DNA of 64,000 nt from Agromyces aurantiacus (GTDB lineage: Bacteria > Actinomycetota > Actinomycetes > Actinomycetales > Microbacteriaceae): contig NZ_JAFBBW010000001.1 of NCBI RefSeq assembly GCF_016907355.1, forward strand, positions 1,550,001-1,614,000, read 5' to 3'. Both the position numbers and the translations under genes were made by a program. The notes below the pieces were generated by a model. The model saw nothing but the letters and a program-made list of their open reading frames with translations, was not told the origin of the DNA and searched no databases. This document shows positions 7,199 through 12,788 of the stretch, one piece after another. The stretch's first letter is position 1. The number at the start of each line of letters is the position of its first letter.

Positions 7199-7441
7199 TC
7201 ACCCGCGCGCCGCGACGTAGTCGATGAGCGCCTGCACGGTGGTCAGGCCCGCGTAGTCCTCCTCCGGCGTCGAGACGCCGGTCGAGTCGGCGAGCAGCTC
7301 GAGCAGGCGGAGGAAGTCGAGCGAGTCGAGCTCGAGGTCCTGCCGCAGCCGCGACGCGGTGTCGAGGTCCTCGATCTCGACATCCGGCGCGACCTCCCGC
7401 AGCGCGGCCAGCACGGCCGCCCGGGCATCGGTGTCGTTCAC
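7199..7441 (-). CDS. Acyl carrier protein
   Basis: 80 residues from a GTG. It has the acyl carrier protein fold signature with ELDSLDFLRLLELL, where the Ser in DSL is the 4'-phosphopantetheine attachment site, preceded by DVEIEDLDTASRLRQDL and followed by LTTVQALIDYVAARG. It is the last gene of the dehydrogenase-like operon and overlaps the E2 gene by 4 bases, so the ACP is made with E2 and is likely a physical partner. ACPs are not normal parts of 2-oxoacid dehydrogenase complexes, which makes this placement notable. Confidence 0.88.
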   Translation of the reverse strand: MNDTDARAAVLAALREVAPDVEIEDLDTASRLRQDLELDSLDFLRLLELLADSTGVSTPEEDYAGLTTVQALIDYVAARG

Positions 7442-9012
7442 AGTTCCTCCGGCTTCTGCAGCAGTTCGTCGACGCGGGCGAGGTACCGTCCGCCGCGCAG
7501 CCCGTCGGTCACGCGGTGGTCGGCCGAGAGCGTCGCCGTGACGGCGGGCCGCACCCCGATCAGCCCGCCCGTCGCCCAGGGTTGCTCGACGACGCGCCCG
7601 AACCCCACGAGCGCGACCTGCGGCGCATAGATCACGCCGAAGACGGACTCGACGCCGAGGTCGCCGAGGTTGGTGACCGTGATCGTGGGGTCCGTCATCT
7701 CGGCCCTCCGCAGGCGCCCGGCCCGCGCGCGGGCCACGAGGTCGCGCAACGCCGCCATGAGCTCGTCGGGCGAGAGCCGGTCGGCGTCGTGGATGGCCGG
7801 GGCGACCAGGCCGCCGCCGCGGAGGGCGACCGCGACGCCGAGGTGCACCGCCTCGCTCGGCCTGAAGCCGCCGTCGACGAAGAACCCGTTCATCTCGGGC
7901 ACGTCCTTCGCGGCGCGGGCGCTCGCGGCGAGGAGCAGCGCGGCGGGCACGAGCCGTTCCGACAGCGGCCGACCGGCGTTCGCCTCGCGCATCCACTCGA
8001 GCGACCGGTCGAGGTCGATGGTCGTACTGAGGTAGTAGTGCGGGATCTCGCGCTTGGATCGCGCCATGAGCGCGCCCACGGCGCGGCGCAGGCTCGCGAT
8101 GCGCTCGGCGGCGCCGGTGGGCTCGGCGCGCCCGTGCTCGGGCGGCGCGGCCGCGGTCGCGGCCGGCTCGGGCCGCTCGCCGTGCGGCCGCCGCTTCCTC
8201 CGCGGATGCGTGGGCGCCCCGGCGGCGGCGCCCTCCGGGACGGCCTCGGCCGGCCGGGTCGGCGCGGCCGCACGTGCCTGGGCGCCGCCGGCCTCCGCCG
8301 CCCGGCGCACGTCGGCATCGGTCACGGCGCCGTCCGGCCCGGTGCCGGCGACCGATGCGAGGTCGACGCCGAGCTCCGCCGCGAGCCGCCTGGCCCGCGG
8401 CGAGGAGCGGATACGTGCGCCGGCCGCCGAGGGCGCCCCGGGTGGCGGGCTCGGGCGGGACGTCGGGGTCGGCCCGGCGATCGCGGCCTCGCGCGCGGCG
8501 GCCGCGGCCTCGCGCGCGCCCTCGGCCGGCACCCGCCCGCGCGCACCGGCGGCGGCCGCCGCCTCGACGTCGGCGGGCGTGACCGCGCCGCCCGGGCCGG
8601 TGCCGTGGACCCGGTCCACGTCGACCCCGAGCCGGTGCGCGACGTGACGGGCCAGCGGTCCGGCTCCGGGCGCGCCGGGCGTCGCCGCGACCTCGCGGGC
8701 CGGCGGTGCCGGCGGTACGGGCGCGGGCGGTGACGGTTGCGTCTGTGGTGTCGACGGCGTCGGCGCGACGTCCGCGGGCGTCCCCGTCATCCGCGCGATG
8801 GGCGTGCCGACCGGGACGGTCTCGCCCAGGTCGACGAGGTACTCGGCGAGCACGCCCTCCTCGAACGACTCGATCTCCATCACGGTCTTCTCGGTGTCGA
8901 CCTCGGCGACGAGATCGCCCCGGTGCACGTAGTCGCCGGGATGCACGAGCCACTCGATGACCTTCCCGCGCTCCATGTCGGCCCCGAGCGAGGGCATGCG
9001 CAGCTCAGGCAC
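7438..9012 (-). CDS. E2 dihydrolipoamide acyltransferase with two subunit-binding domains
   Basis: 524 residues. Order: a lipoyl domain at 1-75 with the lipoate attachment Lys 42 in VDTEKTVME; a Pro/Ala linker; a peripheral subunit-binding domain at about 108-145 ([19 protein letters not shown]); a second at about 195-230 ([20 protein letters not shown]); another linker; and the catalytic core ending [10 protein letters not shown] with the active-site His and Asp. Two subunit-binding domains in one E2 are unusual; one normally binds E1 and/or E3. The GTG start at 9012 overlaps E1 beta by 8 bases. Substrate unknown: pyruvate, acetoin or a branched 2-oxoacid are all possible. Confidence 0.88.
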
Positions 9013-9985: not shown

Positions 9986-10989
9986 GGCGTCGCCCCCGCT
10001 CGCTCCGAGGTCACGAAGCGGGTCAGCTCCTCGACGGGTTCGGGCGTGCCGGCCTCGGCGAACGCGACCGCGGCGTCCATCTCGGCGGCGACCTCGCGCT
10101 CGATGCTCGCGAGCGCGTCGGCGTCGAGCCGGCCGGATGCCTCGAGTGCGCCCTGCAGGAGTCGGATCGGGTCCCGCTCCATCCAGTGCTCGACCTCGAC
10201 CTTGTCGCGGTAGCGCTCGGGGTCGAACATCGAGTGGGCGCGGAACCGGTAGGTGCGCAGTTCGAGGAAGTGCGGTCCCCCGCCCGCCCGCATGGCCTCG
10301 GCGGCGCGCCGTGCGGCGTCCTCGACGGCGATCGCGTCCATCCCGTCGACGGCCCACGACGGGATCTCGTAGGCGGCGGCCTTGAGCGCGAGGTCGGTCT
10401 GCGACTCGGAGCGCTCGAGCGCGGTGCCCATGGCGTAGAGGTTGTTCTCGCAGCAGAACAGCACGGGCAGGTCCCAGAGCGCCGCCAGGTTCATGCTCTC
10501 GTGGAACTCGCCCTCGGCGATGGCGCCCTCGCCGAAGAAGCAGGCGGTCACCCGATCGCGGCCGGCCAGCTTGTCGGCGAGCGCCAGCCCCACGGCGAGC
10601 GGCAGCCCGCCGGCGACGATCGCGTTGCCGCCGTAGAACCGGGTCGCCGCGTCGAACAGGTGCATCGATCCGCCGCGGCCGCGGCAGCACCCCTCGGCGC
10701 GGCCGAACATCTCGGCCATGATCGACTCGGCCGAGACGCCGCGCAGCAGCGCGTGCCCGTGCTCGCGGTACGTGGCGACGACCGCGTCATCCGGCCCGAG
10801 CACCGACATGACGCCCGCCGCGACCGCCTCCTCGCCGATGTACACGTGCAGGAACCCCCGGATCTTCGTCGCCGAGTACAGCTCGACGCAGCGTTCCTCC
10901 AGGCGGCGCACCCGGATCATCCGCCGGAGCAGATCGAGCGCCCGGTCGGGGTGCCCCTCGATGGCGCGCGCGCGTTCCTCGTCGTTCAT
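9982..10989 (-). CDS. 2-oxoacid (or acetoin) dehydrogenase E1 alpha subunit
   Basis: 335 residues. It has [19 protein letters not shown] and the ThDP/Mg motif GEGAIAEG, followed after 24 or so residues by [11 protein letters not shown], all in PdhA/AcoA order. A phosphorylation-loop-like [15 protein letters not shown] is also present. The ATG at 10989 overlaps the stop of the upstream acyl-CoA synthetase (ATGA). Length and sequence do not separate pyruvate from acetoin specificity. No dihydrolipoamide dehydrogenase (E3) gene is in the operon. Confidence 0.92.
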
Positions 10990-12788
10990 CGCCCGGCCTC
11001 CAGGGTCGAGGTGTCGCCCTCGGGCAGCCCGAGCTCGCGGGCCTTGAGCAGGCGGCGCAGGATCTTGCCGCTGCGCGTCTTCGGCAGTGCGGCCGCGAAG
11101 TCGAGCAGTCGCGGCGCGACCGCCGCACCGAGCCGCTTGCGCGCGAAGCCGATGAGCTCGAGGCGCAGGGCGTCGGACGGCTCGTGGCCGGGCTTCAGCT
11201 CGACGAACGCCTTCACGACCTCGCCCGCGACCGGGTCGGGCACGCCGATCGCGGCGGCCTCGGCGACCGCCTCGTGCTCCATGAGGCAGCTCTCGACCTC
11301 GAACGGGCCGATCAGGTGCCCCGACGACTTGATGACGTCGTCGCCGCGTCCGACGAACCAGAAGTAGCCGTCGGCGTCGCGCCGCGCGAGGTCGCCGGTC
11401 AGGTACCAGCCCCCGGCGAAGCACCGGCGGTAGCGCTCGTCCTCGTCGAGGTAGCCGCGGAACATCGACGGCCAGCCGGGCCGCAGGGCGAGCTCGCCCG
11501 TGGCATCCGCCTCGCAGAGCACCGCGTGCCCGTCATCGCCGATCACGGGCGCGCCCGTCTCGTCGCGTGCGACCACCGCGGCCTCGATGCCGGGGAGCGG
11601 GCGGCCCATCGACCCGGGCCGGATCTCCATCGCCGGGTAGTTCGAGATCATGATCCCGCCGGTCTCGGTCTGCCACCAGTTGTCGTGCACGGGCAGGCCG
11701 AACGCCTCCTCCCCCCAGACGACGACCTCCGGATTGAGCGGCTCGCCGACGCTCGCGACGAAGCGCAGCGCCGAGAGGTCGTGGCCGGTCGCGCGCTCGG
11801 CGCCGGCCTTCATGAGCATGCGCAGCGCGGTCGGCGCGGTGTACCAGACGCTCACGCGCTGTTCCTCGAGGATCCGGTACCAGCGCTCGGCGTCCATCTC
11901 CTCCTCGTCGACGATCGCGGTCACGCCGTGCACGAGCGGCGCGATGATGCCGTACGAGGTGCCGGTGACCCAACCCGGGTCGGCCGTGCACCAGTACACG
12001 TCGTCGGGGTGCAGGTCGAGTGCGAAGCGGCCGGTCGCGTAGTGCGCGGTGACCGCGTCGTGCACGTGGATGGCACCCTTCGGCCGCCCCGTGGTGCCGC
12101 TCGTGAAGTGCAGCAGGGCCATGTCCTCCGGCCCGGTGTGCGCGGTGGGGGCGGTGTCGGATGCGTCGGCGAGCAGCGCCGCGAGGTCGAGCGTGCCCGG
12201 GTCGGGCGCGCCATCCGCATCGACCAGGAGCACGTGGCGGAGCGCCGGCAGCTCGTCGCGGATCGGCGCGACCTTGCGGCGATGGAACGCGCGCGTGGTC
12301 ACGAGCACGCGCCCCGACCCGATCTGCAGGCGCTGTCGCACGGGCTCGGGACCGAACGCGGAGAACAGCGGGCAGAACACGGCGCCGTGCTTGAGCGTGC
12401 CGAGCACGGCGGCGTAGAGCTCGGGCGTGCGGCCGAGCAGCGAGTACACGCGCTCGCCGGGTTCGACGCCGAGCGCGGCCAGCACGTTCGCGAAGCGTGC
12501 CGCCTCGCGGGCGAGCACGCGGTAGGTCAGCGAACGCGTCGTGCCGTCGGCGCGCACGAAGCGCAGCGCCTCGCGGTCGGCGAGCGGGCCGGCCGCATGG
12601 CGGTCGACCGCCTCGTGCGCGATGTTGAGGCCGCGGCCGGGCAGGCCGTCGAGCGCGCGGCGCGCCTCCTCCCACGAGAACGCGGCGCGCTCCGCGTCGT
12701 AGTCCACGAGGTTCGGCCGCACCCGGAGCGCCGCGACATCCTTCGGAATCGCGGCCCAGCGCGTCGACGACGGCGTCATCGCCTCCAT
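10986..12788 (-). CDS. Acyl-CoA synthetase (acetate-CoA ligase-like), first gene of the E1/E2/ACP operon
   Basis: 600 residues, shorter than Acs (651). It has the adenylate P-loop [20 protein letters not shown] typical of acetate-type ligases, [12 protein letters not shown] and [11 protein letters not shown] with the catalytic Lys. It should activate a small carboxylate to the CoA thioester; whether it also charges the ACP at the end of the operon is open. The ATG at 12788 follows TATCCT by six bases, indicating a leaderless mRNA, and this start is preferred over a second ATG three codons on that has GGAGG too close to it. Confidence 0.88.

Follow-up and report, generated by a model that had tools for sequence, protein, structure and literature searches.

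The five-gene operon and its products

The window analysed here, a 64,000-nucleotide stretch of the Agromyces aurantiacus genome (3.88 Mb, one contig), carries five minus-strand open reading frames running from 12788 to 7199. They encode an acetate-coenzyme A (CoA) ligase, the E1 alpha, E1 beta and E2 components of a pyruvate dehydrogenase (PDH)-type complex and an acyl carrier protein (ACP). The ligase gene (10986..12788, 600 aa) overlaps that of E1 alpha (9982..10989, 335 aa) by 4 nt (10986-10989), which in turn overlaps that of E1 beta (9005..9985, 326 aa) by 4 nt (9982-9985). E1 beta and E2 (7438..9012, 524 aa) share 8 nt (9005-9012), and E2 and the ACP (7199..7441, 80 aa) share 4 nt (7438-7441). 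These coordinates bear out the initial annotation, which had described five genes in one unit with overlaps of 4-8 bases, and the overlap with E2 supports its inclusion of the ACP. Inspection of the reading frames of 7199-12788 found no E3 gene within the operon, as had also been claimed. A simple sigma-70 and terminator scan of 7000-13450 found no match; internal promoters of other types are neither supported nor excluded by it.

The ligase scored 918 bits against the acetate-CoA ligase model NF003313 (cut-off 729), which places it in the AMP-forming AcsA type. Among the homologues from the related loci described below, the motif WWQTETG was found in all 88 ligases examined and T[RL]SGKI[LM]R in 74 of them. 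The gene differs from AcsA in that it overlaps E1 alpha and heads an E1/E2/ACP operon. Both E1 subunits exceeded the cut-offs of pyruvate dehydrogenase models: E1 alpha (PF00676) scored 442 bits against TIGR03182 (cut-off 393.85) and E1 beta (PF02779 and PF02780) 398 bits against NF006667 (cut-off 321). The nearest solved relative of E1 alpha is human PDH E1 alpha (E 1.6e-74). A branched-chain 2-oxoacid dehydrogenase (BCKDH) was set aside on this comparison, with human BCKDH reaching only 8.9e-36. The E2 holds all domains of the pyruvate dehydrogenase kind, namely one lipoyl domain (PF00364), two E3_binding domains (PF02817) and an acyltransferase domain (PF00198, 186 bits) with the catalytic motif ADHRVTDG.

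The initial annotation had left the substrate as a 2-oxoacid or acetoin, which the E1 models and the human relative narrow to pyruvate as the probable substrate. An acetoin dehydrogenase would convert acetoin to acetaldehyde and an acetyl-lipoyl group, and the ligase would recover acetate made from the acetaldehyde, a task it would fit. The E1 subunits of acetoin and pyruvate dehydrogenases are related, and one aldehyde dehydrogenase is annotated about 12 kb from the cassette of a Leisingera plasmid. Yet the E2, for all its PF00198 domain, scored 82 bits against NF011457 (cut-off 307), the E1 subunits pass the curated pyruvate models, and aldehyde dehydrogenase is no recurrent neighbour in the annotated plasmid regions. 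We set the acetoin explanation aside on the model scores, as very improbable.

The operon resembles the heterotetrameric-E1 PDH complex (TIGR03182/NF006667 type) in combining E1 alpha, E1 beta and a lipoyl/E3_binding/acyltransferase E2. It differs in the missing E3, in an E2 below curated cut-offs, in the ligase upstream and the ACP downstream, in the additional presence of AceE in the same genome and in the two E3_binding domains found in 10 of 36 E2s scanned. E3_binding domains were present in 33 of these 36; none was detected in L104, L116 or the shortened E2 of L046, and that of L117 fell below the Pfam cut-off. Seven stretches with the E3 dimerisation domain (Pyr_redox_dim) lie elsewhere in the genome, one of them at 2308034 near an E2 match at 2306402. 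The initial annotation had suggested either that the acyl group passes to or from the ACP or that the complex borrows the cellular E3. Since the E3_binding domains are kept in 33 of 36 E2s, a cellular E3 shared by the module appears the likelier of these options.

The genome contains six stretches of E2 catalytic domain, five of the E1_dh family and three of PP-binding, the window's own being counted where applicable. AceE, the homodimeric E1 of another PDH type with presumably the same overall substrate, is encoded by a separate gene at 2286584 (TIGR00759, 1362 bits), about 3.4 kb from a PP-binding carrier. Because AceE is present elsewhere, the operon is probably not the genome's sole pyruvate dehydrogenase and its role is probably auxiliary.

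The last product reached 35.5 bits against PF00550 (cut-off 20.8) and carries a serine in LDSLDF; the ACP fold together with the DSL/DSM serine identifies a phosphopantetheine carrier. It reached no NCBIfam ACP model, scoring 34.4 bits against TIGR00517, the fatty-acid-synthase ACP equivalog (cut-off 70.45). Modelled with AlphaFold2, the 79 residues that follow the start form four helices (mean pLDDT 92.6), and the conserved Ser39 (numbered without the start residue) opens helix 39-53 (helix II). The best solved folds listed for the model are mostly free or complexed ACPs, confirming an ordinary ACP fold and nothing further. Alignment of 25 ACPs from different phyla showed P18, D38, S39 and D41 to be invariant and A17, L43, E59 and D61 nearly so. 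PE.DY was found in 87 of 102 ACPs; fatty-acid-synthase ACPs are not known to have this PExDY stretch.

Recurrence of the cassette and co-inheritance of the carrier protein

A scan of genome contigs with the ACP alignment gave 71 loci, a set that, being seeded with the ACP, cannot gauge how often the ACP is absent. The same five genes in the same order and strand were found in 58, four more were cut by the contig start, and nine were incomplete. Among the incomplete loci, L011 lacks E1, and L040, L046, L053, L069 and L077 consist of an E2 (or a piece of one) and an ACP. Genus names that we take to belong to Microbacteriaceae or Micrococcaceae account for 67 of the 71, the other four being Geodermatophilus, Blastococcus, Dactylosporangium and a Solirubrobacterales metagenome-assembled genome. 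Agromyces is frequent among the closest named relatives of the ACP and E2; those of the ACP also include Microbacterium and others.

On plasmids, E1 alpha matched 630 records by tblastn. Among the best 40 of these, 29 rows showed 59-72% identity and the other 11 at most 52%; a count by identity band gave 29 records at 60-80%, which places at least one such record beyond the 40. Nineteen of the 29 high-identity rows were fetched; the ten others are additional records of Leisingera (8) and Rhodococcus (2). The order ligase-E1 alpha-E1 beta-E2-ACP holds in all 19 fetched records, in hosts from both Actinomycetota and Pseudomonadota (Streptomyces, Embleya, Rhodococcus, Leisingera, Sulfitobacter, Tropicibacter, Sinorhizobium, Ciceribacter, Methylocystis, Azospirillum, Cupriavidus, Burkholderia, Paraburkholderia and Photobacterium). 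The four annotated Roseobacteraceae plasmid records have E1 alpha and beta fused as a single gene. Plasmids favour mobile islands, and Pseudomonadota are represented here by their plasmids.

Of 7997 candidates scored in a profile search with the ACP, 7062 protein clusters reached E <= 0.001. An ACP profile search of 296 genomes matched 157, far above the number of E1 clade carriers; this profile was dropped as a survey probe. E1 alpha was used instead because the ACP profile is not specific. Searched against 396 Actinomycetota genomes, E1 alpha matched 16 genomes, the window's included, at 62% identity or more over most of its length and three at 47-49% (E <= 1e-90), with one truncated match at 71% (G362). 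The complete cassette was present in 12 of 16 non-self survey regions; of the other four, L144, L146 and L154 stop at a contig edge and L141 has no ACP next to E2. None of seven lower-identity E1 controls (four plasmid, 43-52%; three survey) had the ligase or the ACP. The gap in identity thus matches the presence of the cassette in both the 396-genome survey and the best 40 plasmid matches, indicating that this E1 alpha clade and the ligase-ACP pair go together.

The operon is genuine and its order is more than chance, because it recurs across two phyla. The initial annotation had proposed a search for conserved gene order and had allowed that the order might be found only here; the three sets dispose of that possibility. 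Clustering of reading frames in 85 loci revealed no recurrent sixth gene, the top non-cassette clusters reaching about 20 loci with a rough caller that also makes antisense frames.

In 66 of 98 loci the ACP gene begins exactly 4 nt before the end of the E2 gene, with homologue starts chosen by script. In 46 non-redundant loci, left from 76 with all five proteins after incomplete loci and then near-duplicates had been removed, ACP distances correlated with the distances of the other four proteins (ligase r 0.88, E2 0.85, E1 alpha 0.84, E1 beta 0.82; permutation p 0.001 for the first three). This correlation reflects co-inheritance, not contact, and a mobile unit that descends as a whole would produce the same pattern.

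In another reading the ACP would be a lipoylation helper, carrying the octanoyl chain that LipB moves to the lipoyl domain of this E2, with no catalytic partnership. E2 lipoylation normally draws on octanoyl-ACP, and the ACP would be made together with an E2 that needs the cofactor. We nonetheless judge this quite improbable: the seven control E1 loci have no ACP, the genome holds another PP-binding carrier that outscores the cassette ACP in Pfam (50.3 vs 34.9 bits), and the ligase is left without a role.

Some loci depart from the five-gene arrangement. At L046:8030-9001 a shortened E2, with lipoyl and acyltransferase domains only, is followed by the ACP. It was rejected as a two-gene variant, being found in one strain whose ligase and E1 genes seem to have been lost downstream of the promoter, and was treated as decay. 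Cassette-type ACPs without an E2, with neighbours named by inspection or tblastn, lie beside glycosyltransferase-like and hydrolase-like genes at L062:9001-9228 and L066:4541-4768, and beside CBS-domain-like and P-type ATPase-like genes at L175:9544-9861.

A candidate DosR-like box and low-oxygen islands

An OsdR/DosR-like box, CGGGACGAAGGACCCC, is predicted at 12824..12839 (minus strand), centred at -43 relative to the ligase ATG. A -10-like hexamer, TATCCT, stands at 12795..12800 on the same strand and starts 12 bases before the ATG; the pattern TANNNT recurs in six related loci (L007-L012), at -12 in five and at -16 in one. The spacing fits a leaderless transcript, and the initial annotation's description of the operon as leaderless would be compatible with it.

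Upstream regions were scored with a matrix built from 19 OsdR sites given in PMC5069765, with a threshold from shuffles. Loci without a usable ligase upstream were dropped (16 of 72 in the contig set, 1 of 16 in the survey). In the contig set, 18 of 56 upstreams, the window's included, scored above this threshold, where 2.8 would be expected; in 15 of them the site lay at -42 to -46. After removal of seven near-identical upstreams, the best position lay at -46..-39 in 26 of 49 (4.1 expected), and the mean score peaked sharply at -42. The evidence for this predicted box is thus its positional recurrence across species, not its score in the window. Upstream of the plasmid cassettes, FNR-like sites (at most one mismatch) were found in 5 of 19, with about 1% in shuffles.

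A candidate regulator is encoded in the genome. A DevR-like protein 58% identical to a regulator of the Rhodococcus plasmid pDK1 (next best by score, 40%) lies beside a GAF histidine kinase gene, making a DevR/DevS-like pair; near the pDK1 cassette, a GAF sensor kinase gene occurs with a LuxR-type response regulator. The Agromyces regulator and kinase (L174:11743-17368; G000:C1 ~837742-843367) are divergent from genes for a universal stress protein and a phosphoketolase, and an OsdR-like box, AGGGACCAAAGGCCCC, stands at -41 of the universal stress protein start. A genome-wide scan with the box pattern gave nine distinct sites (11 strand hits vs 2 control hits), and another scan gave 5 vs 1. 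Only some of the sites inspected lie near -42, and we confine the proposed regulon to the window operon and the universal stress protein/phosphoketolase pair.

The plasmid cassettes are accompanied by genes for universal stress proteins, Hsp20, PpsA, PfkB, BON and CBS proteins, nicotinate phosphoribosyltransferase, alcohol dehydrogenase and Crp/Fnr proteins. At least one marker from a fixed list of such island genes was found near 10 of 13 survey cassettes, compared with 1 of 14 control stretches (seven paralogue loci and seven stretches of the window's own genome around other E1/E2, E3 and carrier genes). The control stretches averaged 15 kb and those of the survey cassettes 20 kb, and the short contigs of L144, L146 and L154 were dropped from the count. 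Markers were also found near 17 of 19 plasmid cassettes, a circular result as the plasmids supplied the queries. Both the predicted low-oxygen islands and the DosR/OsdR-like box are additions to the initial annotation, which saw neither.

Such islands are familiar from known low-oxygen systems. The DosR/DevR and OsdR regulons and the Burkholderia low-oxygen-activated (lxa) locus share with the cassette islands the universal stress proteins, Hsp20, PpsA or pyruvate phosphate dikinase, PfkB, and BON, CBS or alcohol dehydrogenase genes; the candidate OsdR-like box would be a further point in common. Rows of the lxa table list stress proteins, phosphate acetyl/butyryl transferase, acetoacetyl-CoA reductase, alcohol dehydrogenase and phosphofructokinase (PMC6127331), and pyruvate phosphate dikinase is mentioned along with stress proteins in the OsdR passages (PMC5069765). 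Neither these OsdR passages nor the main text and protein table of the lxa report name an acyl carrier protein or the five-gene cassette: the main text of PMC6127331 does not contain 'pyruvate dehydrogenase' or 'acyl carrier', and that of PMC5069765 does not contain 'acyl carrier' or 'acetyl-CoA'. Parts of further papers were also covered (PMC6448022, PMC9104464, PMC3759415, PMC6302529 and PMC4505428). In line with the initial annotation, which knew of no characterised pathway with this set, the literature searched, with most subscription journals outside its coverage, gave no description of the cassette.

Our best reading is that in Actinobacteria such as A. aurantiacus the operon would be under DevR/DosR-type low-oxygen or redox control, with induction by low oxygen as the predicted outcome.

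Further genes were noted next to individual plasmid cassettes. Beside the Sulfitobacter cassette, L124:3992-16492 carries an F0F1 ATP synthase set, FabI, a bifunctional enoyl-CoA hydratase/phosphate acetyltransferase and acetate kinase. Genes resembling that of beta-ketoacyl-ACP synthase III (KAS III) lie near the Rhodococcus cassette.

A proposed role in acetyl-group handling

We propose that the operon specifies an auxiliary module for low oxygen that pairs a pyruvate dehydrogenase with an acetate ligase and in which the dedicated ACP carries the acetyl group, a reading to which we give about even weight. A DevR-like regulator would activate the promoter through the box at -43. E1 would decarboxylate pyruvate and acetylate the lipoyl arm of the dedicated E2, whose acyltransferase would pass the acetyl group to the phosphopantetheine of holo-ACP, besides or in place of CoA. 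The ordinary cellular E3, docked on the E2 binding domains, would re-oxidise the lipoyl arm. Finally, the ligase would join the acetyl-thioester pool to acetate, either by acetate activation or in reverse with ATP formation. The genes and their domains and order, the co-inheritance of the ACP, the promoter box and the DevR/DevS-like pair are supported by sequence, and from them we infer all catalytic steps, the loading of the ACP, the direction of the ligase and the low-oxygen induction.

Its inheritance together with E1, E2 and the ligase, and its absence from the seven paralogue controls, are our grounds for taking the ACP as the probable acetyl carrier from E2 to the ligase or to an enzyme acting later. 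The acyltransferase fold of the E2 family allows a phosphopantetheine acceptor, and sequence does not decide between CoA and ACP. If E2 feeds the ACP, a carrier-protein product would be added to an enzyme family known for CoA products. A PDH, an acetate ligase and a private carrier are kept together in two phyla, plasmids included, which points to acetyl-group handling at low oxygen.

An ordinary CoA-dependent auxiliary PDH under low-oxygen control, with the ACP co-expressed and acting elsewhere or as a structural or regulatory subunit, is a somewhat unlikely but substantial alternative. The ACP might then, with the same limited likelihood, serve other enzymes that work with ACP or CoA in this response, as in lipid remodelling or fermentation. 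ACPs of this family do occur without an E2, alone in contig loci L060, L062 and L066 and near the CBS-domain-like and P-type ATPase-like genes of L175, and the E2 catalytic motif DHR..[DS]G is retained in 95 of 101 E2 pieces examined. The FabI, enoyl hydratase-phosphate acetyltransferase and acetate kinase genes by the Sulfitobacter cassette and the KAS III-like genes by the Rhodococcus one would also suit such a role. However, FabI does not recur as a neighbour (plasmids, 1 of 19; survey, 1 of 13; contigs, 1 of 71), and both the recurrent 4-nt E2/ACP overlap and the tracking of the other four genes by the ACP distances argue for a closer tie.

Several observations weigh against the proposed low-oxygen module with an acetyl-carrying ACP. 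The use of the ACP by E2 or the ligase is argued indirectly, from co-inheritance. No E2-ACP fusion occurs among the 98 loci, and the lone ACPs of L060, L062 and L066 count on the same side, as do six contig loci that hold E2 and the ACP without E1, some with a fragmentary E2 and one (L053) adjoining an assembly gap. In survey locus L141 no ACP lies beside E2, and cassette-like ACPs are found on two other contigs of that genome. The distribution is patchy, with the cassette in none of two other genomes of the genus and none of three of the family sampled. As for the enzymes, E1 alpha does not reach a second pyruvate model, TIGR03181 (254 vs 411 bits), Geobacillus PDH E1 alpha is a weaker match to it than human BCKDH (8.5e-32 vs 8.9e-36), and E2 reaches no NCBIfam E2 cut-off, the best being TIGR01349 (258 vs 445 bits).

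The same holds for parts of the regulatory evidence. The plasmid cassettes have the OsdR-like box no more than expected (1 of 19 vs 1.0). Of the 15 survey upstreams, 6 exceed the threshold, none of them near -42. The window box is not exceptional by itself, since 13 of the 63,984 window positions, its own included, score equally or better. Island markers lie near only 17 of the 71 contig loci, mainly Micrococcales, and the same marker queries found none in the first 25 kb of the window.

A more specific and rather doubtful form of the proposed module is CoA-sparing pyruvate oxidation for low-oxygen dormancy, in which E2 would acetylate the ACP, not CoA, and the ligase in reverse would release acetate and ATP. 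The reverse reaction might, equally speculatively, act with AMP and pyrophosphate on acetyl-ACP, or on acetyl-CoA fed from it. Some AMP-forming ligases are known to run in this ATP-making direction, a use that would make sense at low oxygen. How strict aerobes supply energy without oxygen is an open question, and many members of DosR-type responses are of unknown use. If the CoA-sparing form is correct, the cassette would form a mobile energy unit, complete in itself, that converts pyruvate to acetate and always keeps its intermediate out of the general CoA pool.

The genes around the operon in the window were given putative names by inspection. On its far side, 1175-6986 holds a second acetyl-CoA synthetase-like gene (minus strand) and pilus-type ATPase and membrane genes (plus strand). 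Upstream of the ligase, 13542-18825 resembles a methylcitrate cluster, with a propionyl-CoA synthetase-like gene on the minus strand and GntR-like regulator, PrpD-like and PrpB-like genes on the plus strand. Between the operon promoter region and the propionyl-CoA synthetase-like gene, 13007-13291 is an array of near-identical units at 73-base spacing, with three overlapping 139-nt copies that are 89-94% alike and the palindrome CCTCATATGAGG in each unit.

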